Assembly: GCF_008727865.1 (NCBI RefSeq)
Contig: NZ_VTWU01000010.1
Location: 1 to 64,000 of the forward strand
Direction of reading: 5' to 3'
Source of the DNA: Hymenobacter busanensis
Lineage (GTDB): Bacteria > Bacteroidota > Bacteroidia > Cytophagales > Hymenobacteraceae
Length of the DNA: 64,000 bases
Numbering within the stretch: position 1 is the stretch's first letter; every line of letters starts with the position of its first letter. The notes below the pieces were generated by a model that had not been told where the DNA came from, made no database searches, and worked only from the letters and a program-made list of their open reading frames with translations. Position numbers and translations under genes: made by a program. Positions 28,772-35,322 of this stretch are shown piece after piece.

Positions 28772-28923
28772 GTCGTAGGGAATGAATAGAACTTTCGTGG
28801 GTCAATATAGTAGTTAGGAGCACTCTAGGCTCCCGCGTATGCAATAACCCGAACGTGCCCAAGGCCGTTAGGCGGGTAGTGGGTGCGGCGCTGTCGCCGT
28901 GGCCTTTCCAGTTGCCGTACTGC

Positions 28924-30105
28924 ATGACTTTTCGCTACCTTCTCCTCACCGGCGCCCTGGCCGTTGGCCTGTTGACGGCTGCCTCCGCCCAAACGCCCGA
29001 TACGGCTTCGGCCAAGCGCACAGAGCGCGACATTCGGCTGGGCCAGCCGGCCAAGAACCCCGAAGACCGCCCCAGCTTTATTCCGGCCCCGGTCATTTTC
29101 TACGAACCCGAAACCGGCTTTGCGGCCGGCGCCACCTTTCTGCCTACCTGGCGCCACGGCCGCGACACCACCGTGCGCAAGTCCAACGGTCGCATCGGCG
29201 GGTGGTACTCGCAGAAAAAGCAGCTGAACCTGCAGCTGAGCCACACCATCTTCACCCGCCGCGAAGCCTGGCTGGTGAGCGGCGACCTGCTGTTCTACGA
29301 CTACCCGATTTTTTTCTACGGCATCGGCAACGACACCGATATCGACGACGAAAGCGAAATTTCCTACAAGGTCCTCACCTTCAACCAGCGCGGGCTGAAG
29401 CAGGCCTTCATTCCCGGCCTGTTTCTGGGCCTGACCTACCGCTACACCGACACGCGCGACATCATCGCCGACAAGCCCACCGTGAACGACGGCGACAAAG
29501 CCAACCTGCTGCTCACTCAGGTGCCCGCCGAACAGCGCCTGGATACCCGCATTTCGGGCCTGGGCCCGGCCGTGGTGTACGACACCCGCGACAACGTGCT
29601 GAGCACGTTTCGCGGCAATTACGTGGACGTGCAGGCCCTGCTGAACCGTTCCGGCCTGGGCAGCGACTACAACTTCACCCGCTACCAGCTGGACGCCCGC
29701 CACTTTCAGCCGCTGCGCAAAGGCTCCAACCGCACCATTCTGGCCGGGCAAGTGCTGGGCCAGTTCAACCGCGGCAACGTGCCCTTCCGCGAGCTGGCCG
29801 GCCTGGGCGGCATCACCGTGCTGCGCGGCATCTACGAGGGCCGATTCCGCGACCGGCAGCTGCTGATGGGCCAGGCCGAACTGCGCCACCACTTGTTCTG
29901 GCGCCTCAACGGGGCCGTGTTTGCCGGCGTCGGGCAAGTAGCGCCTCGCTTCCGCGACTTCGGCCTGAGCGACTTCAACTACGCGGCCGGCGGCGGCCTG
30001 CGCTTCCAGTTCAACCGCCGCGACCGGATCAACATCCGCTTCGATTACGGCGTGGGTTCGGGCGGATCGAGCGGGCTGTATTTCGGCGTAAACGAAGCGT
30101 TTTAG
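28924..30105 (+). CDS. Omp85-like outer-membrane barrel protein (first of pair)
   Basis: A 393-residue exported protein with a signal peptide (ending near TAASAQ) and a 16-strand-like barrel of the Omp85/bacterial surface antigen (D15) type. No POTRA repeats precede the barrel. The conserved strand turn reads GLGGITVLRGIYEGRFRDR, matching the LRGY/VRGF lock segment of BamA/TamA relatives. FFYGIGNDTD and VVYDTRDNVLSTFRGNYV are also typical, and the C-terminus ends in aromatic GLYFGVNEAF. It may help insert or move lipids or proteins, but stand-alone barrels of this kind have no assigned role. It is followed by a paralog 110 bases downstream. Confidence 0.85.
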   Translation: MTFRYLLLTGALAVGLLTAASAQTPDTASAKRTERDIRLGQPAKNPEDRPSFIPAPVIFYEPETGFAAGATFLPTWRHGRDTTVRKSNGRIGGWYSQKKQLNLQLSHTIFTRREAWLVSGDLLFYDYPIFFYGIGNDTDIDDESEISYKVLTFNQRGLKQAFIPGLFLGLTYRYTDTRDIIADKPTVNDGDKANLLLTQVPAEQRLDTRISGLGPAVVYDTRDNVLSTFRGNYVDVQALLNRSGLGSDYNFTRYQLDARHFQPLRKGSNRTILAGQVLGQFNRGNVPFRELAGLGGITVLRGIYEGRFRDRQLLMGQAELRHHLFWRLNGAVFAGVGQVAPRFRDFGLSDFNYAAGGGLRFQFNRRDRINIRFDYGVGSGGSSGLYFGVNEAF

Positions 30106-30174
30106 CAGGCAATCCGGGCTGGCAAAATCTGCCCAGCCTCCGTCGTTCAAGCTCGACTTCTATTCAGTACATTG

Positions 30175-30206
30175 AGCAGCCATCCGCCCCGGGTGGCTGC
30201 TTTTTT
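30175..30206 (+). terminator. terminator ending 9 bases before the next ATG
   Basis: AGCAGCCATCC (30175-30185) pairs with GGGTGGCTGCT (30191-30201) with one U-G pair, and a run of six T follows (30201-30206). The second barrel gene starts at 30216. No room remains for a normal promoter after it, so it may act as an attenuator or leaky terminator. Confidence 0.8.
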
Positions 30207-30215
30207 ATTGCGTCG

Positions 30216-31367
30216 ATGCGTAGCCACTGTTTGTTGCTAGCCTTGGGTGTGCTGGCCGCACCTGTTTTCTGCAAAGCCCAAGCCCGGGTCGTGCCGGCCG
30301 ATTCCGCCGCGGCCCGCCCTGCCAAGCCGGCCCGCAAGGTGAAGGTGGCCGCGCTGCCCATCGTGTTTTCGCAGCCCGAAACCGGCATTGCCTACGGCGC
30401 GGCCGTGCTGCCGGTGTGGCGCTTCGGCACCGACACAGCCACGCGCAGCTCCACGGCCCGCCTGCTGGGCTACTACACCCAGCGCAAGCAGTCGAGCGTG
30501 TCGCTGACCTACACCATTTTCACGCCCGGCGAAAGGTGGGCACTCAACGGTGAGGCCTTCTACTTCAACTTTCCCTATTACTACTACGGCGTCGGCAACG
30601 ACACCCGGAAGGCCGAGAAGAGCGACATTTCCTACAAGGTGGTCATCGTCACGCAACGGGTGCTCAAGAACCTGCGCCCGCACACCTTCGCCGGCCTCAG
30701 TTTCCGCCTCACCGACCTCCACCACATTCGCCTCGACGACCCGCTGACCGACGACGGCCAAAAGCCCAACCTGCTGCTGGAACGCCCGGCCCGCGAGCGG
30801 CAAACCACCCTCACCTCCGGCCTCGGCCCCACGTTTCTCTACGACAGCCGCGACAACGTGCTCAGCACCTGGCGCGGCAGCTACCTCGAAACCACCGCGC
30901 TGCTGATGGGCCGCTACCTCGGCAGCGACAATAATTTCACCCGTTTTCAGCTCGATGCGCGCCATTTCAGGCCACTAAGGCGCGGCAACACCAACACGGT
31001 GCTGGCGGGGCAGGTGCAAGGGCAGTTTCACACCGGCACGGTACCGTTTCGCGAGCTGGCCAATCTCGGCGGCGAGAAGATGCTGCGCGGCATTTACGAA
31101 GGCCGGTTCCGCGACCGGCAGATGGTGGCCGCCCAGCTGGAGCTGCGCCAAAAACTATTCTGGCGCCTCGGCGGCGTGGTATTCGGCGCCGCCGGGCAGG
31201 TGCACAATAGCCTCGGCGACTTCCGCCCGAACGACTTTAACGTGGCCGCCGGGGCGGGCCTGCGCATCGCCGTCAACAGGCAGGACCGCCTGGCTATTCG
31301 CATCGACTATGCGGTGGGCTCGGGGCAATCGAGCGGGCTGTATTTCGCCTTCAACGAGGCATTTTAG
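30216..31367 (+). CDS. Omp85-like outer-membrane barrel protein (second of pair)
   Basis: A 383-residue paralog of the preceding gene. The signal peptide is MRSHCLLLALGVLAAPVFCKAQ. The barrel shares most landmarks: IVFSQPETGIAYGAAVLPVWRFG, YYYYGVGNDTRKAEKSDISYKV, FLYDSRDNVLSTWRGSYLET, NLGGEKMLRGIYEGRFRDR, and a C-terminal GLYFAFNEAF. No POTRA repeats are seen. It differs from its twin mainly in surface-loop segments. The ATG lies 9 bases after the T-run of a hairpin terminator, so its expression may depend on read-through from the first gene, or on a promoter overlapping the hairpin. Function unknown, outer-membrane location inferred. Confidence 0.85.
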   Translation: MRSHCLLLALGVLAAPVFCKAQARVVPADSAAARPAKPARKVKVAALPIVFSQPETGIAYGAAVLPVWRFGTDTATRSSTARLLGYYTQRKQSSVSLTYTIFTPGERWALNGEAFYFNFPYYYYGVGNDTRKAEKSDISYKVVIVTQRVLKNLRPHTFAGLSFRLTDLHHIRLDDPLTDDGQKPNLLLERPARERQTTLTSGLGPTFLYDSRDNVLSTWRGSYLETTALLMGRYLGSDNNFTRFQLDARHFRPLRRGNTNTVLAGQVQGQFHTGTVPFRELANLGGEKMLRGIYEGRFRDRQMVAAQLELRQKLFWRLGGVVFGAAGQVHNSLGDFRPNDFNVAAGAGLRIAVNRQDRLAIRIDYAVGSGQSSGLYFAFNEAF

Positions 31368-31389: not shown

Positions 31390-31430
31390 TTCTTGTGCGG
31401 TGCGTACATGCTAGCCAGTTGCCGCACCGT

Positions 31431-32624
31431 ATGCCCCTACCTCTACCTGCCCGATTTCTCCAGGCCATCGGCGCCTCCTTTGCGCGCGCCCCCCGCGAGT
31501 TGCAAATACCCGCGCCACCGGCCGCCGAGCTCGAAATCTGCGTGATTGTGCCGGCCAAAGACGAGGCCGACCGGGTAGAAGCCACCTTGCTGGCGCTGGC
31601 CCAGCAGGTAACAGCCGCTGGCCAGCCGTTTGCACCCGAACGCTACGAAATTCTGCTGCTGGCCAACAATTGCAGCGACGACACCGCCGCCGTGGCCCGC
31701 CGCTTTGCCGCCCGGCACCCGCACCTCGCGCTCCACGTGCTCGAAACCACGCTGCCGCCCGCCGAAGCCCACGTGGGCCGCGCCCGGCGCCTGCTGATGG
31801 ACGCTGCCTGCCGCCGCCTCGAAGCCGTGGGGCGTCCGCTCGGTCTCATTGCCTCCACCGACGCCGACACCCGCGTAGCCGCCACCTGGCTGGCCGCTAC
31901 TCTGGCCGAAGTAGCCGCCGGGGCCGATGCCGTGGGCGGGCGCATTCTGCCCGAAACCACTGCCCCCGGCTGCCCCACCCGCCGCCTGCACCTGCGCGAT
32001 GCCGCCTACCGCCTGCTCTGCGCCCGTCTCGAAGTCCTCATCGACCCCCTCGACCACGACCCGTGGCCGCGCCACCACCAGCACTTCGGGGGCAGCCTTA
32101 CCCTCACCGCCGCGGCCTACCGCCGCGTAGGCGGCCTGCCTGTAGTCCCGTTTCTGGAAGACGAGGCGCTGTGCCGCCTGCTTCGCCACCACGATTTGCG
32201 CTTGCGTCACAGCCCGCACGTGCGGGTTGTTACCTCGGCCCGGCAGCAGGGGCGCGTGGCCGTAGGACTTTCGTGGCAACTGCGCGAATGGGCCCAGTAC
32301 TGCGCCGAGGGCCGGGAGCCGCTCGTCGACAACCCGGTGCGGCTGCTGGCCGAATGGACGCTGCGCCGTCAGTTGCGGCAGCTGTGGCAATTCCCCTCCG
32401 AAAACCACGCCGAGGCTTCCGGCCGTGTTCTGGAACTGGCCGCCGCGCTGAACCTAACGCCCACGGCCTTGCTTGCGCACCTGGGCAGCGGCCTAACGTT
32501 CGGGACGATGTGGGAACAACTCATGCTCGCGGCGCAGCCCGCCTGGCAGCTACGCTGGCCCGCGCTGCCTCTGTCAGCAGCAACCGCTGAATTGCGGAAG
32601 CTGGTTGCGGTATTCGGCCGCTAA
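31431..32624 (+). CDS. GT2-family glycosyltransferase of a Nod-like cluster
   Basis: A 397-residue GT-A glycosyltransferase. The nucleotide-binding start is EICVIVPAKDEADRVEATL (residues about 35-53), the metal-binding DxD is STDADTR (Asp144, Asp146), and the likely acceptor/base region is HFGGSLTLTAAAYRRVGGLPVVPFLEDEALCRLL (EDE at 243-245). No membrane helix is obvious, unlike NodC or hyaluronan synthase. It would transfer a sugar from a nucleotide sugar; donor and acceptor are unknown. It points toward a minus-strand set encoding a NodS-like methyltransferase, a PIG-L deacetylase and an acyl-CoA-dehydrogenase-like protein, and is separated from them by 48 bases. The four enzyme types parallel sugar transfer, N-deacetylation, methylation and acyl chemistry in Nod-factor synthesis; this link is my inference. 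Confidence 0.85.
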   Translation: MPLPLPARFLQAIGASFARAPRELQIPAPPAAELEICVIVPAKDEADRVEATLLALAQQVTAAGQPFAPERYEILLLANNCSDDTAAVARRFAARHPHLALHVLETTLPPAEAHVGRARRLLMDAACRRLEAVGRPLGLIASTDADTRVAATWLAATLAEVAAGADAVGGRILPETTAPGCPTRRLHLRDAAYRLLCARLEVLIDPLDHDPWPRHHQHFGGSLTLTAAAYRRVGGLPVVPFLEDEALCRLLRHHDLRLRHSPHVRVVTSARQQGRVAVGLSWQLREWAQYCAEGREPLVDNPVRLLAEWTLRRQLRQLWQFPSENHAEASGRVLELAAALNLTPTALLAHLGSGLTFGTMWEQLMLAAQPAWQLRWPALPLSAATAELRKLVAVFGR

Positions 32625-32672
32625 GCAGGAAACATTGCCGAAAATACTGGCCCTTAGTAATCTATGCGGCGT

Positions 32673-33269
32673 CTAGCGGAGTTCCAGCAAATCGAGGCGG
32701 TACGTATCGGCCCGGTGACCGTGGAGGTGGCGTAGCGGGCCGGCGTCGCCGGTGAGGGAGAGAAAATAATCGTGCACTTCGTCGCCGGTGAGGGGGTAGT
32801 CGTGCACCTCGGGCGTCCAATGCACTAGAAGCAGGTGCGCCCCGGCGGGCATGGCCGCGAGCATGGCGTTAGCGGCGCGATGTAAGGTTGGTTCGTCCCA
32901 GTAGTAGCCGACCTCGGAAAGCAGAATCAGGTCGAAGTGGCCGGCGGGAAACGCGTCGGGCACCTGCAGGCGTTGCACCCTTACCTGCGGCAAGGCGGCG
33001 CACCGCTGCCGCGCCCGCATCAAGGCCGCTTCCGACACGTCGACAGCCAGCAGGTGCCCGCACCGCGAAGCCAGTTGCGCCGTGAGCACGCCCAGTGAGC
33101 AGCCAATTTCAAACGCTCGTTCGTAGCGCGGCCGCGGCAGCGCGGCCAGGGTGTCGGCGTACTTGGCGTGCTCGTAGGGGCTGGTTTCGAAGTGCCACGG
33201 GTCGGCGTTGGCGCGGTATACGTCGTCGAAGTAGCCGGGTCCGAGCGTGTGGGGCTGGTTGGGATTCAT
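32673..33269 (-). CDS. NodS-like SAM-dependent methyltransferase
   Basis: A 198-residue class I methyltransferase. Motif I is FEIGCSLGVLTAQLA (residues 53-67), followed by the acidic end of strand 2 (LLAVDVSEAAL) and a DLILLSEVGYYW motif. The N-terminus YFDDVYRANADPWHFETSPYEHAKY closely fits the NodS family, whose members N-methylate the non-reducing glucosamine of chito-oligosaccharides after deacetylation. ATG 33269 is used; the TTG at 33278 would add three residues. It is the last gene of the minus-strand unit, 94 bases after the PIG-L deacetylase. The real acceptor is unknown, but an amino sugar freed by that deacetylase is a sensible guess. Confidence 0.88.
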   Translation of the reverse strand: MNPNQPHTLGPGYFDDVYRANADPWHFETSPYEHAKYADTLAALPRPRYERAFEIGCSLGVLTAQLASRCGHLLAVDVSEAALMRARQRCAALPQVRVQRLQVPDAFPAGHFDLILLSEVGYYWDEPTLHRAANAMLAAMPAGAHLLLVHWTPEVHDYPLTGDEVHDYFLSLTGDAGPLRHLHGHRADTYRLDLLELR

Positions 33270-33363
33270 AAGCAGCAAACAGAAGAGCAGAAACTAGTTC
33301 GGCGGTGGCGGGCGGGACCAAACACAGGCGTGGCCTCCACGAACCGGCGAAGGGGGAGTGGGT

Positions 33364-34137
33364 TTACAAGGAAGGTTTGGCCCCTTCGAAGTACGTTTCG
33401 AAAGGCTGCGCGAAATGAGCCAGCATCTGCGAACTGAGCCGGAAGCCGCTGGGGTCGTCGTCAATTAAATTGGTGAGCTGCGAGCGGTGCGCCGCCATGG
33501 CCTCTTGCTTCTGGCCGAGCACCGGGCTGATGTCGAGGCGCCAACCGGTGGCTTCGTCGGGGCGGGGCAGGTCATCCGGCGCGGCTCGTTCCCAGGCCCA
33601 CACCACGTACTCCAGCACGCGCGGCGGGTGCGGGAAGTCCGCCAAAGCAGCGTGAGTCAAATAGTAAGTCGCGCGGTGGTCGGGGTGCGGGTCGCGCCGC
33701 CAGGGCAAGAGCAGTGTGGCCGGTCGATGCCGGAGCAACCACTGACGCAGGCAATTTGTGGGGTTTTCGCTGCTCAAATCGGCGGCAAAAGCGGCGGCGT
33801 TGCCGTCGGGCAGGTTGAGCAACAGCAGATAGTCGTCGGCGACGCCCAAGATGCGCAGGGCCTCGCGCAGCTCCTGTTCCCGCAGCTGCCGCCGGGCATC
33901 GGGCGGAAAGCGCACGGAGTGGGGGTGCGACATGGTGCCATCGGTTACCAGGCAGGCCACCACGCGCTGCCCGGCTTGGCGGAGCAGCGCCAGCAGCCCG
34001 CCGCAGCCCAACGACTCGTCGTCGGGGTGAGGAATGATGACAGCCGTGGTGCCGAGCGAAGCGGCGTAGCCAGGGGGACGCAACGGTAAGTCGAGCAGCG
34101 CCGCGGGGCGCAACGGGGGCGGGGAATCAAAACCCAT
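33364..34137 (-). CDS. PIG-L/LmbE-type deacetylase
   Basis: A 257-residue zinc-dependent N-deacetylase of the LmbE/PIG-L fold, which removes acetyl from N-acetylglucosamine in small glycosides. The first metal motif is PHPDDE (36-41) and the second PHPDHR (150-155); the strand VVACLVTDGTMSHP and LPDGN also fit. No signal peptide is seen, so it acts in the cytoplasm. It starts 15 bases after the acyl-CoA-dehydrogenase-like gene and is almost certainly co-transcribed with it. In bacillithiol and mycothiol synthesis related enzymes deacetylate GlcNAc-malate or GlcNAc-inositol, but the surrounding genes do not match those pathways. In the cluster it would play the part NodB plays for Nod factors, with an unrelated fold. 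Confidence 0.9.
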   Translation of the reverse strand: MGFDSPPPLRPAALLDLPLRPPGYAASLGTTAVIIPHPDDESLGCGGLLALLRQAGQRVVACLVTDGTMSHPHSVRFPPDARRQLREQELREALRILGVADDYLLLLNLPDGNAAAFAADLSSENPTNCLRQWLLRHRPATLLLPWRRDPHPDHRATYYLTHAALADFPHPPRVLEYVVWAWERAAPDDLPRPDEATGWRLDISPVLGQKQEAMAAHRSQLTNLIDDDPSGFRLSSQMLAHFAQPFETYFEGAKPSL

Positions 34138-34152
34138 GCAAGCAAGAATGAA

Positions 34153-35322
34153 TTAGTCGACGTGCCACAACTCGTGAGCCGGAGCGGTTTGGAGCAGCGC
34201 GAAGCGGCCCGCATCGGCCAGGGCGGCATCGGGGGCGGGCTGACGTAGGTAGTGCGTCAGGTCGCGGTGCAGACGCTCCAGCGGGTGCGGGCGCAGCAGG
34301 CCCCGGGCGCCCACGCTGCGCTCAGCCAGCTGCAGCACGCGCAAACACACCTCTTCGATGGCGGTGCGCACCATGTTCGCGTAGGCCACGGTGGCTTCGG
34401 CTTGCTCTATGGCGGCCGGCCGGCCGGCGTGTGCAGCCGCGCCGTGCAGCCACTGGTGGCCGCTTTCCACCAGAATGGCCATTTCGCCGAGGCGCTGGCG
34501 CTGGTAGGGGTCATCGGTGCGGCCCAGGCCGCGCAGAAAGTCGCGGGCGGTGTCGAACAAGGCCTCGGCCGCGCCCAGCTGCACGGCCGCAAATCGGATG
34601 GCCCCGCCGCTGAACCACGGCTGCCGGTAATAGTCGCCGGGCTGGCCCAGTAAATCGTCGGAACCGATTTCCAGCCCGCTCAAATCGACCCGAAAACTGG
34701 CCGAAGCCCGCATGCCCAGCGGCTGCCAGAAGCTGGCATCGTAAGTGGGCGGTTGCGCATCGGCGGGCAGTACCAGCATCTGCCAGCCGCCATCGGGCAG
34801 GGCTGCCGTGAGCAAGGGGCGGGTAACGTGCCCGGCCCCCGAGCCGAAGGTTTTGCTGCCCTGCAGGCGGTAACGGCCGCCGGGCAGCGGCTCCAGTTTC
34901 ACGCCGTCGGCTGCTTCGGTGTTCCAAACGCCGAAAAGGTGGCCGGCGTGGGCATCGGCGGCGTAGCGCTGCTGTTGCGCCGGGGTGCCGAAACGGCCGA
35001 TGAGCTGCAGGGCGTTGGTGTGGCCTTCGTACACGCGGCCCACTGCCAGATTGCCGCGCCCCAGGTGCTTGAGCAGCATCAGCAGCGGGAGGGTGTGCTC
35101 GGGCTGCACCAGGCTGGCACCACCAAGAGCCGCCGGCAACGGGCCCGTCAACAGGTCCGCCGCGCGCAGCCAGTCAAACTCGCGGCTGGGAAACCCGCCG
35201 TCGTAATCAGATTCGGCGGCGTGTGCGGCCAAGCGGGGCACCAGGTGTGCAGCGGCGGCAACAAGTGCAGCCGGCAGCGTTGCCGAAATGGGCGACGCAG
35301 CAGCGGAAACGGAATCGAACAT
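34153..35322 (-). CDS. acyl-CoA-dehydrogenase-like flavoprotein
   Basis: A 389-residue member of the acyl-CoA dehydrogenase fold. It has the N-terminal helical domain (LGGASLVQPEHTLPLLMLLKHLGRGNLAVGRVYEGH), the beta domain (FGVWNTEAADGVKLEPLPGGRYRLQGSKTFGSGAGH) and the C-terminal four-helix bundle (YANMVRTAIEEVCLRVLQLAERSVGARGLLRPHPLERLHRDLTHYLRQPAPD). The FAD-facing 'T/S' strand is recognisable, but the usual catalytic Glu of the helix bundle cannot be placed with confidence. The substrate could be a carrier-bound acyl chain or a sugar intermediate. It is the first gene of the ACAD-deacetylase-methyltransferase unit facing the GT2 gene. Confidence 0.85.
   Translation of the reverse strand: MFDSVSAAASPISATLPAALVAAAAHLVPRLAAHAAESDYDGGFPSREFDWLRAADLLTGPLPAALGGASLVQPEHTLPLLMLLKHLGRGNLAVGRVYEGHTNALQLIGRFGTPAQQQRYAADAHAGHLFGVWNTEAADGVKLEPLPGGRYRLQGSKTFGSGAGHVTRPLLTAALPDGGWQMLVLPADAQPPTYDASFWQPLGMRASASFRVDLSGLEIGSDDLLGQPGDYYRQPWFSGGAIRFAAVQLGAAEALFDTARDFLRGLGRTDDPYQRQRLGEMAILVESGHQWLHGAAAHAGRPAAIEQAEATVAYANMVRTAIEEVCLRVLQLAERSVGARGLLRPHPLERLHRDLTHYLRQPAPDAALADAGRFALLQTAPAHELWHVD

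Follow-up and report, generated by a model that had tools for sequence, protein, structure and literature searches.

A conserved cluster of GT2 glycosyltransferase, NodS-family methyltransferase, PIG-L deacetylase and flavoprotein genes in Hymenobacter busanensis and other bacteria

In the genome of Hymenobacter busanensis, four enzyme genes lie side by side, namely those of a GT2 glycosyltransferase, a NodS-family class I S-adenosylmethionine (SAM) methyltransferase (MT), a PIG-L/LmbE zinc de-N-acetylase and a flavoprotein with the acyl-CoA dehydrogenase (ACAD) fold, which raises the question of whether these enzymes work together and what they would make. The window analyzed is a DNA stretch of 64,000 nucleotides (contig NZ_VTWU01000010.1, positions 1 to 64,000; assembly GCF_008727865.1), and the cluster occupies positions 31431–35322. 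An earlier note on this DNA had read the cluster as an independent, Nod-factor-like route to a methylated and possibly acylated amino-sugar molecule. Open reading frame (ORF) analysis and a Pfam search, which supported the family label of each gene, confirmed the four families, the PIG-L rather than NodB type of the deacetylase and the two gene gaps of 48 and 15 bases that the note had given. The test proposed there, co-occurrence of the four families within 10 kb, was passed in both related and distant genomes. The four genes are one real functional unit, and the set is not special to the H. busanensis genome. Thus, the unit stands and a methylated amino sugar is favored as its product, while a lipo-chito-oligosaccharide and acylation are not; the Nod-factor label is best regarded as an analogy for two or three steps of the module.

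The flavoprotein gene is the first of a three-gene set on the minus strand, and the GT2 gene converges on all three. The gaps are 15 bases between the flavoprotein and PIG-L genes, 94 bases between the PIG-L and MT genes, and 48 bases between the stop codons of the convergent MT and GT2 genes (32625–32672). Of 120 family genomes searched for the MT, 43 contained it; separate searches for the flavoprotein, GT2 and PIG-L each returned the identical 43 genomes, and the other 77 contained none of them. The four genes are grouped together in all of these 43 genomes, one group being divided by a contig break. One family genome carried two complete copies of the set. The MT and GT2 genes were located on one contig in 43 of the 44 family copies, with a median gap of 53 bases in the 43 measurable ones; in the exception, the two were found on different contigs, with the MT gene located at the end of its contig. 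In the genus to which the window belongs, four species contained all four genes and four species contained none. The order GT2> <MT <PIG-L <ACAD was kept in all 20 loci fetched from relatives, and the adjacency of the four genes is far beyond chance.

When bacterial and archaeal genomes of 84,980 species were scanned, the MT was found to have at least 565 relatives, and the best 80 loci were examined. All four genes were found in 71 of these 80, among them loci of Spirosoma, Fibrella, Dyadobacter, Flavobacterium and many Cyanobacteria; since the 80 loci are the closest matches, they are biased to near relatives. One Chloroflexia and one Verrucomicrobia locus in this group contained three genes, PIG-L being absent. 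The same gene set was present in Nostoc, and plasmid records added Deinococcus, Methylobacterium (where GT2 and flavoprotein are fused as one ORF), Bradyrhizobium, Komagataeibacter, Novosphingobium, Sulfitobacter, Paracoccus, Comamonas and Acinetobacter. The set is rare in a sample of Bacteroidota, where a strong MT match was found in 4 of 198 genomes and the flavoprotein in the same 4. Its distribution is patchy, although it occurs in at least six phyla if the Rubrobacter variant described below and the loci without PIG-L are counted, and this patchiness suggests horizontal transfer of the cluster. Clustering of all neighboring ORFs from 45 diverse loci revealed no fifth gene common to phyla, which argues that the four genes suffice, and no acyltransferase or NodA in the conserved gene set. 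No relatives were found in the viral contigs searched. Retained or lost as a whole in several phyla, the set probably makes something useful. A defense-system role was considered and dropped, as the search matched a generic methyltransferase only.

The MT gene (32673–33269, minus strand) encodes 198 aa from its ATG, with a TTG at 33278 as an alternative start. The protein belongs to the Pfam NodS family (PF05401; 54.8 bits against a gathering cut-off of 24, 1.5e-14). Its score against the curated NodS equivalog model NF041650 was 72 bits, compared with a cut-off of 300 and 333 bits for a true NodS. Judged by these model scores, it belongs to the wider NodS family without being NodS itself. An N-terminal DPW motif is common to the MT and NodS (3ofj). 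The closest solved structure was the methyltransferase 4isc, with NodS 3ofj second.

In three other settings, too, NodS-type MTs accompany a GT2 enzyme and a de-N-acetylase. They are found together in nod operons and in single-chain GT2-NodS-NodB proteins of about 1000 residues from Gloeothece, R. leguminosarum and Mesorhizobium (L120:4582-8058, L121:6378-9380 and L122:6498-9410). In the third setting, a Rubrobacter variant (L008:3186-9479), PIG-L is absent, a gene for a NodB-type polysaccharide deacetylase stands directly before the flavoprotein gene, and the run includes a pyridine-nucleotide oxidoreductase gene. This recurrence supports deacetylation of an amino sugar with subsequent methylation. 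In an unrooted MT tree, drawn with a midpoint root, two NodS proteins and three domains of the trifunctional chains formed one branch (support 97/95) that was attached among the MTs of alphaproteobacterial clusters (93/97 for the wider alphaproteobacterial group). The direction of descent between NodS and the cluster MTs is not given by this tree, since it is unrooted and NodS lies on a long branch.

The flavoprotein gene (34153–35322, minus strand; 389 aa; Pfam Acyl-CoA_dh) had been assigned to acyl chemistry in the earlier note, and this assignment was not supported. A profile built from 29 flavoprotein rows matched DszC best (4.7e-33), then TdsC and MsuC, all ahead of true ACADs, and it also matched the nitrososynthases 3mxl, KijD3 and DnmZ. 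The 15 best fold matches of the AlphaFold model (predicted local distance difference test score, pLDDT, 87) were DszC/TdsC structures, with nitrososynthases at ranks 19–21. Other residues stand at both catalytic glutamate positions of ACADs, which were assigned from alignments and known ACAD motifs: the position of the medium-chain enzyme (MCAD) is occupied by P, A, H or S in 29 of 29 rows; at the isovaleryl-CoA dehydrogenase (IVD) position, 28 rows have G and one has D. Since the closest matches are DszC/TdsC and nitrososynthases and the ACAD glutamate is missing, acyl chemistry is unlikely, and the flavoprotein is probably a monooxygenase-type enzyme and not an acyl-CoA dehydrogenase. The database name "acyl-CoA dehydrogenase" in such clusters would then need correcting. 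The Deinococcus flavoproteins (L110:5558-7906 and L109:11201-13540) contain an additional N-terminal domain of about 400 residues that had no Pfam or PDB sequence match and that, judged by eye, resembles a TIM-barrel glycosidase.

The PIG-L gene (33364–34137, minus strand; 257 aa; Pfam PIG-L 4e-26) has intact PHPDDE and HPDH motifs. Among 40 homologous ORFs, the zinc/base motif HxDH was found in all 40 and PHxDDE in 38, so that both the Pfam match and the motifs place the protein in the PIG-L family; it is not a NodB-type chito-oligosaccharide deacetylase. Its scores lay below the cut-offs of both bacillithiol models, namely BshB1 (59.8 bits; cut-off 182.5) and BshB2 (58.4 bits; cut-off 195.25). 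The genome encodes its own BshB1 elsewhere (284 bits; cut-off 182.5), as well as BshC, and the cluster PIG-L is therefore unlikely to be a bacillithiol enzyme.

The GT2 gene (31431–32624, plus strand; Pfam Glycos_transf_2 9e-7) encodes 397 aa from its ATG in an ORF that is open from a GTG at 31395. The protein retains T143-D144-x-D146 and E243-D244, so its donor motifs are intact; the DxD motif (D144, D146) and E243-D244 were invariant in 30 cluster members. The AlphaFold model (pLDDT 88) gave only generic GT2 fold matches in Foldseek, which named neither donor nor acceptor. NodC is a membrane enzyme. The cluster GT2 is not NodC: Pfam gave Glycos_transf_2 families only, and none of the four cluster proteins had a transmembrane segment, no hydrophobic stretch in them coming close to the values of two membrane-protein controls. 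A search of the genome with the NodA model PF02474 gave no match, a weak test given that the control genomes gave none either.

Some variation was observed around the cluster. Directly before the GT2 gene lie two adjacent paralogous Omp85-like outer-membrane genes (28855–31367). The Hymenobacter group has kept this pair, and its cluster flanks (purH, mreBCD and the Omp85-like genes) are simply conserved chromosome. In five loci (L045, L066, L068, L071 and L101; some Hymenobacter and one cyanobacterium), the GT2 and MT genes are parted by insertions of about 2.5 to 3.5 kb. In D. radiodurans, the set is interrupted by a helicase gene, and the GT2 gene is about 175 kb away. A GT-B glycosyltransferase gene was found near the cluster in Spirosoma and in Deinococcus gobiensis (L080, L087, L090, L094 and L110), together with a UDP-galactopyranose mutase gene in the latter.

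Taken together, these data point, with chances that we judge to be about even, to one complete cytosolic module for a small, soluble, N-methylated and oxidized amino-sugar glycoside, perhaps a stress-protective one. GT2 would take an N-acetylamino sugar, most likely N-acetylglucosamine (GlcNAc), from its nucleotide donor and join it to a small acceptor, and PIG-L would then take off the acetyl group. The MT may add a methyl group to the amine so exposed, a reaction that NodS carries out on chito-oligosaccharides; this step is proposed because of the coupling of NodS-type MTs with GT2 and de-N-acetylase in the three settings described above. The flavoprotein could act as a reduced-flavin monooxygenase or oxidase of the DszC/nitrososynthase type and oxidize the product, possibly at the amine. 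This oxidation is proposed because DszC and TdsC were the best matches and nitrososynthases were close, because the catalytic glutamate is missing and because the Rubrobacter run contains the pyridine-nucleotide oxidoreductase gene.

The suggestion of stress protection comes from the gene neighborhood. Genes for catalase, Ku/LigD, trehalose synthesis or ferritin-like proteins adjoin the cluster at several plasmid loci, and in Comamonas the cluster is located between otsA and otsB. Stress genes accounted for 8 of about 48 flanking genes and for 2 of 177 genes in control stretches (50-kb stretches of four of the same plasmids, counted by hand from annotation tables; Fisher p = 8e-5). For A. baumannii, one paper lists the four genes as a single operon whose expression is jointly reduced, 31- to 62-fold, in mutants dependent on colistin (PMC5660220). 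In a STRING analysis of BlsA, a photoreceptor, LmbE, the MT and the glycosyltransferase were connected to this protein through gene neighborhood, and KatE and OtsB were its indirect partners (PMC9948694). The literature searches for the gene set returned passing mentions only, and no paper assigning a function was found. A broader version, in which the glycoside is N-methylated, oxidized at N or C and protects against oxidative, radiation or drying stress, and in which rhizobial NodS derived from such a cluster MT, is tentative and on balance doubtful.

Several observations weigh against the proposed module or its link with stress. PIG-L and NodS-family enzymes could have other substrates. The flavoprotein model also fits true ACADs, with a TM-score of about 0.8 for both classes; by sequence as by structure, true dehydrogenases score almost as well as the monooxygenases. 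PIG-L is missing in the loci L088, L091 and L094. The stress keywords were picked after the loci had been seen, and no stress gene adjoins the cluster in the window or lies next to it in the window's genus. An EcfG-type promoter was found upstream of 2 of 11 alphaproteobacterial clusters, compared with a background of 1.2% (p = 0.007). Control of these clusters by EcfG general-stress promoters was rejected, 2 of 11 being too few to claim.

Instead of making a free glycoside, the enzymes might decorate a glycan or glycolipid of the cell envelope: a lipid or polymer would receive an amino sugar from GT2, and deacetylation and methylation would follow. The GT2 fold matches do include polymer and teichoic-acid glycosyltransferases, although the Foldseek alignment is loose (TM-score of about 0.4). 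Repression in lipopolysaccharide-deficient A. baumannii mutants would fit (PMC5660220), as would the extra glycosyltransferases and UDP-galactopyranose mutase that adjoin some Deinococcus, Spirosoma and Novosphingobium loci. However, the four proteins lack transmembrane segments, and the set is not accompanied by any conserved flippase, polymerase or transporter, so that we consider envelope decoration possible, with the balance of evidence against it. A bacillithiol-like pathway, in which GT2 and PIG-L make a glucosaminyl acid for a low-molecular-weight redox cofactor, would share its first two steps with BshA/BshB and agree with the weak match of PIG-L to the BshB models and with the stress settings on plasmids. 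Against it stand the BshB1 and BshC encoded elsewhere in the genome, the lack of a cysteine ligase in the cluster and a PIG-L score of only about 60 bits where the BshB1 model asks for 182.5, which make it improbable.

The independent lipo-chito-oligosaccharide pathway, in which the acyl chain would be shaped by the flavoprotein, draws on the presence of a NodS-family MT and a deacetylase beside GT2. It is very unlikely, given that the conserved set lacks an acyltransferase (NodA was not found, in the weak test mentioned), that the flavoprotein is DszC-like and without the ACAD catalytic base, that GT2 has no membrane helices, that the MT scores far under the NodS model and that the set occurs broadly in bacteria not known as plant symbionts. 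Finally, each of the families is large and diverse and PIG-L is dispensable in some loci, as would be expected of unrelated neighbors brought together by chance or shared regulation with no common chemistry. The all-or-none pattern in the 120 genomes contradicts this, as do the gene order conserved across phyla and the GT2-flavoprotein fusion, and hardly any credence is left for it.

Across Bacteroidota, Cyanobacteria, Deinococcus and Proteobacteria, the set is present or absent as a whole; variants occur in Chloroflexota and Actinomycetota. No function was given for it in the literature searched. As the four enzymes are small and soluble, the proposed module should be easy to reconstitute; knowing its product would put a name to a common metabolite of bacteria and may shed light on the origin of the Nod-factor methyltransferase.

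Among the known systems close to the cluster is a DUF2171-ACAD-PIG-L-MT-GT run next to BLUF photoreceptors in Acinetobacter, which appears in published gene maps (PMC9020721, PMC6240043). It contains the same four families, but its glycosyltransferase gene lies on the same strand and is shorter (214 aa in L116), and the sequences are distant (37% identity for the MT). DszC, TdsC, MsuC and the amino-sugar nitrososynthases KijD3 and DnmZ use the ACAD fold for reduced-flavin monooxygenation; the cluster flavoprotein is only 20–25% identical to them, and no dedicated flavin reductase gene adjoins it in the window. In bacillithiol (BshA/BshB) and mycothiol (MshA/MshB) synthesis, a glycosyltransferase acts first and PIG-L deacetylation of a small GlcNAc conjugate follows. 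The cluster would share this order of glycosyl transfer and deacetylation, but it contains no cysteine ligase, has an MT and a flavoprotein in addition, and uses a GT2 instead of the GT4-type enzymes. The trifunctional GT2/class I SAM methyltransferase/polysaccharide deacetylase proteins unite GT2, a NodS-type MT and a deacetylase in one chain; they differ in their NodB-type deacetylase, the lack of a fused flavoprotein and their gene neighborhoods. Compared with nodC-nodB-nodS of rhizobia, the cluster has PIG-L in place of NodB, a soluble GT2 that is not NodC, no NodA that was found and an extra DszC-like flavoprotein, whereas both combine a GT2, a de-N-acetylase and a NodS-family N-methyltransferase and presumably share the same chemistry of deacetylation followed by N-methylation.

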